This document shows, in pieces, positions 37,993-40,652 of a DNA stretch of 64,000 nucleotides (position 1 is the first letter of the stretch; every line of letters starts with the position of its first letter). The stretch spans positions 6,076,001 to 6,140,000 of the forward strand of contig NZ_JAFIBW010000001.1 of assembly GCF_017833295.1 (NCBI RefSeq). Reading direction: 5' to 3'. Source of the stretch: Methylobacterium sp. PvR107. Lineage in GTDB: Bacteria; Pseudomonadota; Alphaproteobacteria; Rhizobiales; Beijerinckiaceae. The position numbers were made by a program, and so were the translations under genes. A model generated the notes under the pieces. The model worked only from the letters and a program-made list of their open reading frames with translations. It searched no databases and was not told the origin of the DNA.

Positions 37993-38082
37993 CGGCGGAC
38001 CTCGGCGACACTTCGGTTGGACATCGGGCAAGAGCCGAACGGTACTCGCAAAGGCACGTTCGAATGGCCGCAACCGCGAAGG

Positions 38083-38108
38083 GGAACGCCGTCATGCGCG
38101 CAACGGTT
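38083..38108 (+). promoter_or_regulatory. EcfG-like promoter GGAAC-N16-CGGTT
   Basis: GGAAC (38083-38087) and CGGTT (38104-38108) are separated by 16 bp, close to the EcfG consensus GGAAC-N16/17-CGTT. It lies about 35 bp before the start of the SDR gene on the same strand. Confidence 0.4.
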
Positions 38109-38143
38109 CGCCGTGAAGTTGCAAGGCGGCGTGGAGAACAAGC

Positions 38144-39114
38144 GTGGCGCCGCTCAGGGGCGGGACCGTCGTCATCACGGGCGCCTCCAGCGGCATCGGC
38201 CGGGCCGCCGCCGAGGCCTTCGCGGCCCGGGGCGCCCGGGTCGTCCTGGCGGCGCGCCGGGCCGCGGTGCTCGACCGGATCGTCCGGGACCTGCGCGGGT
38301 CGGGGGCCGAGGCCGTCGCAATCCCCACCGACGTCACCGACCCCGCGGCCGTGACGGCCCTGGCCCGGGCGGCGATGCGCACCTTCGGCGGCATCGATGT
38401 CTGGATCAACAACGCGGGGTCGGGGTGTTCTGCCCTCTGCTCGACGCGCCGCTCGACCTGCACCGGCCGACGATCGCGGTGTACCCGCTCGGCGCGATCC
38501 ACGGCGCCTACGCGGTGCTGCCGCACTTCCTGGATCGCGGCCGGGGCACGCTGATCAACACGGTGTCCATGGGCGGCTGGGCACCGACACCCTTCGCGGC
38601 CGCCGACACGGCGAGCAAGTTCGGCCTGCGCGGCTTCTCGGCAGGCCTGCGCCAGGAACTCGCCCGCCACCGGCACATCCATGTCTGCGGCGTGTTCCCC
38701 GCCATCGTCGATACGCCGGGCCTGGAGCACGGCGCCACCGTGACGGGCAGGCGGCTCAATCCCGGACACCTGTTCTACCCAGCCGAGGCCGAGACCTTCA
38801 TCCGCCTCGTGCGCCGCCCGCGCGACGCGGTGGCGGTCGGCTGGCCGGCCCGCCTCGCGCTGGTCGGCTACGCCCTGGCCCCATACCCGACCGAGCACCT
38901 CATGGGCCTCGGCTTCCGCCACGCCCTCGACCGGGCCGATCCGGGCCCGCGGACGCACGGCGCCCTGCGCGATCCGTTGCCGCAGGGCACGGGTGCGGAC
39001 GGGGGCCGGCATGCCCGGAAAGGCGTGCCGTCCGCCGGAGCGCTGAGCGCCGGCCTGGCCGCGGCCGGAGCCTGCGCGGCCCTGCTCGTCGGGGTCGCGG
39101 CGGCTCAGCTCTAG
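38144..39114 (+). pseudogene. Short-chain dehydrogenase with a one-base frameshift
   Basis: The first 90 residues (GGTVVITGASSGIGRAAAEAF, IDVWINNAGS) read from GTG 38144 behind GGAG. Frame is then lost in GCGGGGTCGGGG near 38417-38427; adding one G gives NNAGVGVFCPLLDAPLDL, which continues in the next frame through INTVSMGGWAPTPFAAADTASKFGLRGFSAGLRQEL to 39114, ending in a C-terminal membrane-like segment (LAAAGACAALLVGVAAAQL). The lesion sits in a G-run, so assembly error is possible. A related SDR fragment lies at 59870. Preceded by an EcfG-like promoter. Confidence 0.75.
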
Positions 39115-39229: not shown

Positions 39230-40006
39230 ATGCCCGCACCCGAAGGCTCATCGCTGCTCGATCCCATCGAGGATGTATCCCTCGCGGATCCGGCCGGGGA
39301 TCCCGTCGGGGAGACCCGGTACGGTCTGCCGGAGGCGGTGCGCGCGCATCTCGGCACCCTGCTCGGCCACGCCTATGACCGGATCGGCCCGGCGCCGGGG
39401 GCGACCTCGGATCGCTTCGCCGAGTTGCTGGCGCGCCTCGAGGCCGCGCTGGTGCAGGCCGATGGCGAGCGCGACGGGACGTTCCGCGCGGGCCTGCTGG
39501 AAGTGGTGCCCGCGCTGCACCGGTTCGCCGTGTCGCTGACCCGCGACCCGGCTGCGGCCGACGACCTGGTGCAGGACACGCTGCTGCGCGGCTGGCGGGG
39601 GCGCGGGGGCTTCACCCCCGGCACCAATCTGGAAGCGTGGCTGTTCACGATCCTGCGCAACGTCTTCTACAGCCAGCACCGCAAGCATGGCCGGGAAGTC
39701 TCCGATACCGACGGCAACCACGCCGAGCGGCTGACCAGCGTGCCCGAGCAGGGCGGTCATCTCGACCTTCAGGACGTGCGCGCCGCCCTCGACCGCCTCG
39801 CGCCGGTGATGCGCGAGGCGCTGGTCCTCGTGGCAATCGAGAACCTGAGCTACGAGGAAGCCGCCGCCGTGATGAACTGCCGGATCGGCACCGTGAAGAG
39901 CCGCGTCTGGCGCGCCCGCGAGCAGCTCGCGCGGATGCTCGGCTACAGCGGCTCCGAGATCGGCAACGACGGGGTGATCCTCTCGGTGACCGGCGCGACG
40001 GTCTGA
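39230..40006 (+). CDS. EcfG-type sigma factor with N-terminal NepR-like segment
   Basis: A 258-residue protein. The C-terminal part (about 85-250) is a sigma factor of the EcfG group: DDLVQDTLLRGW, TNLEAWLFTILRNVFYSQHRKHGRE, LDLQDVRAALDRL, REALVLVAIENLSYEEAAAVM and GTVKSRVWRAREQLARML. The first 80 residues are unusual: 33-74 contain LPEAVRAHLGTLLGHAYDRI and DRFAELLARLEAAL, the two-helix pattern of NepR anti-sigma factors. If real, the sigma factor carries its own inhibitor. A later start at GTG 39451 would give a sigma-only form. A separate NepR homologue is encoded nearby. Function in the general stress response is inferred. Confidence 0.8.
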   Translation: MPAPEGSSLLDPIEDVSLADPAGDPVGETRYGLPEAVRAHLGTLLGHAYDRIGPAPGATSDRFAELLARLEAALVQADGERDGTFRAGLLEVVPALHRFAVSLTRDPAAADDLVQDTLLRGWRGRGGFTPGTNLEAWLFTILRNVFYSQHRKHGREVSDTDGNHAERLTSVPEQGGHLDLQDVRAALDRLAPVMREALVLVAIENLSYEEAAAVMNCRIGTVKSRVWRAREQLARMLGYSGSEIGNDGVILSVTGATV

Positions 40007-40403: not shown

Positions 40404-40652
40404 TCAGGTCGAAGCGCCGCCCGCACGGTCCGCGTCGAGCTGCTGCAGCAGCTCCGCCAGCCGCGGATCCAGAGCCTCGTCGATGACCGGATCGTAGAGC
40501 GCCCGCAATTGCTGGCCGAGCCGCAGGCGCGTCCGCGCGTCGAGGTTGGGGCCGCTCGCGACGGGAACCACCCGCAGGGCTCCCGGCGCGCCGCCGGACG
40601 CGGCTCGTGCGGGGGGCCGCGGGGCGGCACGCTGGTGTTCAGGCTGGGGCAT
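40404..40652 (-). CDS. NepR-family anti-sigma factor
   Basis: An 82-residue protein whose C-terminal half carries the NepR signature: RTRLRLGQQLRALYDPVIDE followed by ALDPRLAELLQQLDADRA. NepR binds and blocks EcfG sigma factors until phosphorylated PhyR removes it. The N-terminal half is Ala/Pro-rich and disordered, as usual for the family. ATG 40652 has a purine-rich run directly before it (spacing short), so the start is uncertain. It faces the NepR-EcfG gene across a 400-bp gap. No phyR is present in the window. Confidence 0.75.
   Translation of the reverse strand: MPQPEHQRAAPRPPARAASGGAPGALRVVPVASGPNLDARTRLRLGQQLRALYDPVIDEALDPRLAELLQQLDADRAGGAST

Follow-up and report, generated by a model that had tools for sequence, protein, structure and literature searches.

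The sigma factor encoded at 39230..40006 almost certainly carries a diverged, NepR-derived segment at residues ~33-76, as judged from sensitive profile comparisons. The gene is a lineage-specific EcfG paralogue with an extension known from the EcfG proteins of Methylobacteriaceae. The fusion itself is genuine, yet as a trait of the Methylobacterium family it has already been published, according to the available sections of Francez-Charlot et al. 2016 (PMC4814048). The first-pass annotation had named no described natural fusion, a claim that this paper overturns; our literature search retrieved a description of the fusion from these sections of PMC4814048 only. Given the identity of the segment, our first choice for its role, with about an even chance of being right, is a leaky shield against NepR acting in trans. 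The claim of novelty is thus corrected, and the question of whether the extension adds any feature, stated as not known in the available text of the 2016 paper (PMC4814048), is narrowed.

The sigma factor gene and its NepR-like segment

The window is the whole stretch of 64,000 nucleotides analyzed here (C1:6076001-6140000), from a genome of 6.36 Mb whose closest named loci belong to Methylobacterium. The following features were considered:

39230..40006, plus strand: gene for an EcfG-type (ECF15) sigma factor with a NepR-like N-terminal extension, 258 aa plus stop, ATG at 39230
39230..39325, plus strand: leader, aa 1-32, of variable length and sequence, pLDDT under 50 for residues 1-30
39326..39457, plus strand: NepR-like segment, aa 33-76, from the profile match, alignments, and AlphaFold model
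39452..39454, plus strand: GTG codon of Val75, proposed earlier as an alternative start, a start codon in 0/9 orthologues
39482..39949, plus strand: sigma part, aa 85-240, regions 2 and 4, from Pfam, the PDB sequence match, and fold comparison
40404..40652, minus strand: stand-alone NepR paralogue, 82 aa, downstream of the sigma factor gene and convergent with it

Sigma factors of the EcfG/ECF15 class recognize promoters of the GGAAC/CGTT type and are controlled by NepR and PhyR. The window protein belongs to this class by sequence, with ECF regions 2 and 4 nearest to those of EcfG sigma factors. Pfam identified Sigma70_r2 (7.9e-17) and Sigma70_r4_2 (1.1e-13) in the 258-aa protein, both over the cut-off, and the nearest solved chain by sequence was 5uxx_A (E 1.1e-45, aa 84-237; runner-up 8.5e-22), which is the sigma partner of NepR in Bartonella quintana according to the PDB entry and its title. 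A PhyR-like decoy instead of a sigma factor was rejected, as the PhyR_sigma2 match (2.3e-10) was weaker than that of Sigma70_r2.

The NepR-like segment consists of helix 1 (~aa 35-52), a longer loop, and helix 2 from ~aa 58, and ~7 residues separate it from the sigma part. Pfam family PF18557 matched helix 2 only (aa 61-73), scoring 11.9 bits with the whole chain and 14.2 bits when residues 1-74 were searched alone, which does not reach the cut-off of 25.7 bits; therefore, we use the term "NepR-derived, diverged" rather than "a NepR domain". An HMM of 29 NepRs aligned both helices (aa 33-76, 15.3 bits; 13.3 bits with the full-length protein), and none of 2000 shuffles of the 80 N-terminal residues reached this score (best shuffle, 7.7). 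The 29 sequences are NepR matches in further genomes of the order, which we assumed to stand alone; three of them sit in stop-to-stop frames of 247-415 aa. The profile search of residues 1-80 proposed in the first-pass annotation thus returned a match.

Comparison by hhalign of 15 chosen fused extensions (alignment A2) with 18 of the 29 NepRs (A3) gave a probability of 97.9% (E 3.9e-13). The 15 rows are the window protein and 14 of the 20 named fused loci; they include intermediate paralogues with a better NepR match than the window protein and omit L040 and the weak loci L052, L054, L055, L057, and L061, which were dropped after HMM scoring, so that the selection leans towards the NepR reading. 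When the 15-row profile was searched against 177,635 PDB sequences, two NepR chains came top (E 0.23 and 0.59), followed by an unrelated chain at E 0.60, a result that is not significant alone. Residues L3, H10, L11, G12, L15, and Y19 of helix 1 and L36, L40, and A43 of helix 2 were invariant in the 15 rows, and a Pro invariant in the 18 NepRs is absent from the window segment. Paralogue C1:427657 of the same genome reached 40.7 bits with the Pfam NepR family, over the cut-off, and related fused proteins span the range of 29-NepR HMM scores between it and the window protein. The HMM and hhalign results point to common descent with NepR and uphold the earlier proposal that this EcfG sigma factor has been joined to a NepR-like segment.

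Distribution and origin of the fusion

With the window protein as query, matches running into the extension without stops were found in 24/24 genomes of the same genus. Outside the genus, a best match was listed for seven of the 16 genomes searched; six of these matches start no earlier than residue 82, and the seventh starts at residue 69 and has an internal stop. None of 64 sigma factor ORFs from elsewhere, one of them from Microvirga, carried a NepR segment. A strict test for fusion (NepR score of at least 5 bits, with up to 30 residues between NepR and sigma part) was passed by 35 of 44 Methylobacterium-like loci, which include two MAGs named only to family, some Methylorubrum, and some genes fetched twice. 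The nine that fail (L012, L018, L019, L020, L022, L052, L054, L055, and L061) are too diverged, and one of them, L012, is a member of the window's own orthologue group; L058 from Methylobacterium, whose match starts only at residue 133, was excluded from this count. In the fused rows, the NepR segment ends 5-17, mostly 5-10, residues ahead of the sigma start, a gap of at most 30 being required by the score.

The genome itself contained 14 matches to the window protein, which, together with further NepR loci, agrees with the earlier remark on multiple EcfG and NepR paralogues in Methylobacterium. Seven listed matches were examined as EcfG genes, and five of them passed the test for fusion. Helix 1 only was found at C1:1887968, and the ecfG gene at C1:2913623 is unfused and preceded by a separate nepR (locus C1:2913438-2914150).

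In the available sections of their paper, Francez-Charlot et al. 2016 describe the extension and its resemblance to NepR, credit reference 4 of their list, regard the extension as restricted to Methylobacteriaceae, and propose an "ancient fusion event" (PMC4814048). The window protein, as an EcfG of this family with an in-frame NepR-like extension of ~55 residues, agrees with that description. In our tree, the fused/unfused label needs one change (support 96/90; 41 and 13 rows), and a single ancient nepR-ecfG fusion would be the simplest reading. This reading falls short of proof because of the long branches and the loose label: the tree, rooted at the midpoint only, used 54 rows that we chose from 116, and the fused label required a NepR score above 0 bits and a gap of up to 40, L052 and L061 being labelled by hand. 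In Paracoccus acridae and P. lichenicola (L064, L072), nepR and ecfG are in frame with each other, and after the intervening stop the next ATG follows at a distance of 14 or 15 codons, which shows the ease with which such a fusion could arise.

Among the other NepR matches of the genome, two lie next to putative domains of other kinds. At C1:2049350-2049451 (plus strand; L122, L169), a match of 28.8 bits, over the cut-off, stands ahead of a receiver domain (by eye) in a 204-aa frame. Full-length relatives (query residues <=12 to >=192 of 195) were found in 15/15 genomes of the same genus, and among nine genomes outside the genus matches were listed for two, covering the receiver part only. At C1:5571872-5571973 (plus strand; L123, L168), a match of 27.6 bits forms the C-terminal end of an 802-aa frame whose domain order, judged by eye, is PAS-PAS-histidine kinase-receiver-receiver. 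Matches to this tail that extend at least to residue 194 of the query (of 202) were found in 11/15 genomes of the same genus, two of them having an internal stop; the tail apparently overlaps with the last receiver helix and might be a chance likeness.

Constraint and possible role of the extension

Among the window gene and its orthologues, pN/pS was 0.44 for the extension (aa 37-76; 95% over codons 0.30-0.62), 0.087 (0.05-0.13) for the sigma part, and 0.60 (0.34-0.99) for the leader, and 17/40 residues in the core of the tethered segment were invariant in ten sequences. The corresponding values in the EcfG1-like group (ten sequences) were 0.52 for the extension and 0.053 for the sigma part, indicating that the weak constraint is not peculiar to one paralogue. 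The extension frame is under purifying selection, weakly, and this counters the suggestion made with the first-pass annotation that the N-terminal part might never be made.

AlphaFold models were obtained for the window protein (mean pLDDT 70.5, pTM 0.37; 47 rows) and for L053, which has a better NepR match (37 rows; mean pLDDT 74.2, pTM 0.39). Both models predict helix 1, a loop, and a helix 2 that continues into the first sigma helix, with alignments that are shallow in the extension. Neither model yields an interpretable placement of the parts relative to each other, and docking in cis is neither supported nor excluded by them. The fold comparison of the window model concerns mainly aa 78-240, the extension lying outside its scope.

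The neighbouring NepR paralogue scored 20.3 bits with Pfam in a longer frame, below the cut-off. NepR matches of 28.6-36.0 bits (29-NepR HMM) were found at this position in all nine orthologous loci, and 31/40 core residues were invariant in ten sequences. The tethered segment is thus weakly constrained, whereas the adjoining NepR is somewhat better conserved across the nine orthologous loci, with overlapping pN/pS intervals (0.22 for the neighbour, 0.08-0.43). The convergent pair is separated, stop to stop, by 398 bases in the window and by 206-309 bases in the nine orthologous loci. The block is largely syntenic, with several of the flanking genes also kept in 7-9 of the nine loci; therefore, adjacency alone proves no partnership between the sigma factor and this NepR, and its value as special evidence is weakened. 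The gene directly upstream (38144-39114, plus strand), a short-chain dehydrogenase by eye, was matched in 3/9 orthologous loci.

The EcfG-type promoter GGAAC-N15-18-CGTT had no match in the window (0.93 expected). The relaxed motif GAAC-N16,17-SGTT had nine matches (3.0 expected; 3/100 shuffles had as many), none of them just upstream of 39230 or 40652. The nine include four at 38037-38109, over 1 kb ahead of the sigma factor gene, and we therefore claim no autoregulation. At the phyR-nepR locus, where phyR (by eye) is divergent from nepR C1:4159811 (L170, L120), none of the seven examined EcfG genes was nearby.

Experiments on Methylobacterium extorquens AM1, as given in the available sections of PMC4814048, bear on the role of the extension. 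Only a truncated form of EcfG1 bound NepR in vitro, and in two-hybrid assays NepR was bound by truncated EcfG1 and EcfG5 only, full-length EcfG1 showing no NepR binding in either assay (PMC4814048). In an in vivo pull-down, NepR interacted with both EcfG1 isoforms, namely the full-length protein and a form shorter by 14 residues that arises from a second start 14 residues in, and a sextuple mutant was complemented by the full ORFs of ecfG1 and ecfG2 (PMC4814048). Judging from the pull-down and the complementation by full forms, the extension does not lock the sigma factor tightly. In two-hybrid assays, no EcfG was bound by three NepR homologues of AM1, two of which bound PhyR (PMC4814048). The authors argue that the remaining EcfGs, EcfG2 above all, should be controlled by PhyR through a mechanism yet to be found, and they describe EcfG2 as apparently constitutively active (PMC4814048).

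As a leaky shield, the tethered diverged segment would act in cis as a competitor for the NepR-binding face of the sigma factor. NepR in trans would then bind poorly and the sigma factor would not be locked off, and the paralogue might be controlled through its expression or through a specific partner, for which the neighbouring NepR is the obvious candidate. This role is suggested by the NepR match over both helices, unequalled by any shuffle, and by the hhalign result, as well as by the presence of the extension throughout the genus, the single change on the tree, and the ATG at 39230, conserved in 9/9 orthologues. The spacing between the NepR segment and the sigma part fits a constrained geometry, and the NepR binding of truncated but not full-length EcfG1, with complementation by full ecfG1 and ecfG2, points the same way (PMC4814048, available sections). 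Against it stand the low pTM of both models with helix 2 running into the sigma helix, the weak constraint (pN/pS and invariant residues), the loss of the NepR-invariant Pro and the longer loop in the window segment, the pull-down of both EcfG1 isoforms with NepR in vivo, and the three AM1 homologues that bound no EcfG (PMC4814048).

Alternatively, the extension could be a relic, that is, a left-over fused anti-sigma domain without regulatory function, kept because it is in frame and either harmless or of help when the first sigma helix folds. In favour of a relic are the pN/pS values of the extension in both paralogue groups and of the leader, the smaller number of invariant core residues than in the neighbouring NepR, and the predicted models, in which helix 2 simply prolongs the first sigma helix. 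Nevertheless, the upper bootstrap limit of pN/pS is 0.62, the extension is present in every same-genus genome searched, nine residues are invariant in the 15 rows, and the pN/pS intervals of extension and neighbouring NepR overlap. We consider a relic possible but rather doubtful. Translation from an internal start near GTG 39452, with the NepR part as an untranslated frame, is very improbable. Inspection by eye showed no strong Shine-Dalgarno sequence at ATG 39230, and the second start of AM1 EcfG1 offers a precedent (PMC4814048, available sections), but conservation rejects this start: the codon, which the first-pass annotation had placed at 39451 and which actually lies at 39452, encodes Ala or Thr in the nine orthologues (L039-L047, named, 79-89% identical). 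Furthermore, a stop codon directly precedes the ATG in the window gene and in 4/9 orthologues, and third codon positions are the most variable in every part of the extension in the orthologue alignment.

In the idea put forward with the first-pass annotation, the tethered NepR would hold its own sigma factor off until phosphorylated PhyR bound it and opened the chain, with inhibitor and sigma factor in a one-to-one ratio. The argument for PhyR control of the remaining EcfGs and the two AM1 homologues that bind PhyR but no EcfG would suit such a PhyR-operated sigma factor (PMC4814048, available sections), as would the partly kept NepR helix positions of the window segment. However, binding of PhyR to a fused EcfG was not found in the available sections of PMC4814048, where EcfG2 appears constitutively active, the window segment ranks with the weaker matches to NepR (13.3 bits, compared with 40.5 bits for the EcfG1-like paralogue; 29-NepR HMM, full protein), and the predicted models contain no docking. 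We regard this arrangement as unlikely. It is similarly improbable that the locus forms a self-contained switch, in which the sigma factor would be deaf to the general NepR and would answer to the neighbouring NepR or to phosphorylated PhyR on the tethered segment. If this were true, the genus would have turned NepR into a portable tag, placed also on a receiver domain and a hybrid kinase of this genome.

Comparison with known systems

The window gene resembles EcfG1-EcfG6 of M. extorquens AM1 in its NepR-like N-terminal extension and in the presence of several paralogues per genome, and no ecfG lies at the phyR locus in AM1 or, among the seven EcfG genes examined, here (PMC4814048, available sections). 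Unlike EcfG1, it falls in a paralogue group outside the presumed EcfG1 group, which was inferred from its spread across the genus, the comparison with AM1 being drawn from its published description. Its extension is more diverged than that of the EcfG1-like paralogue, and, in comparison with the AM1 EcfGs, a NepR paralogue adjoins the gene. In the sigma-NepR complex of Bartonella quintana (PDB 5UXX), the two partners are separate chains, whereas here a diverged NepR segment is tethered to the sigma factor. An anti-sigma element and a sigma factor in one chain are also found in IutY (ECF243) and in members of ECF36, which, in the available sections of PMC8999054, are treated under activation by proteolysis; IutY carries a fused membrane-bound anti-sigma factor, and the ECF36 extensions contain transmembrane helices (PMC8999054).
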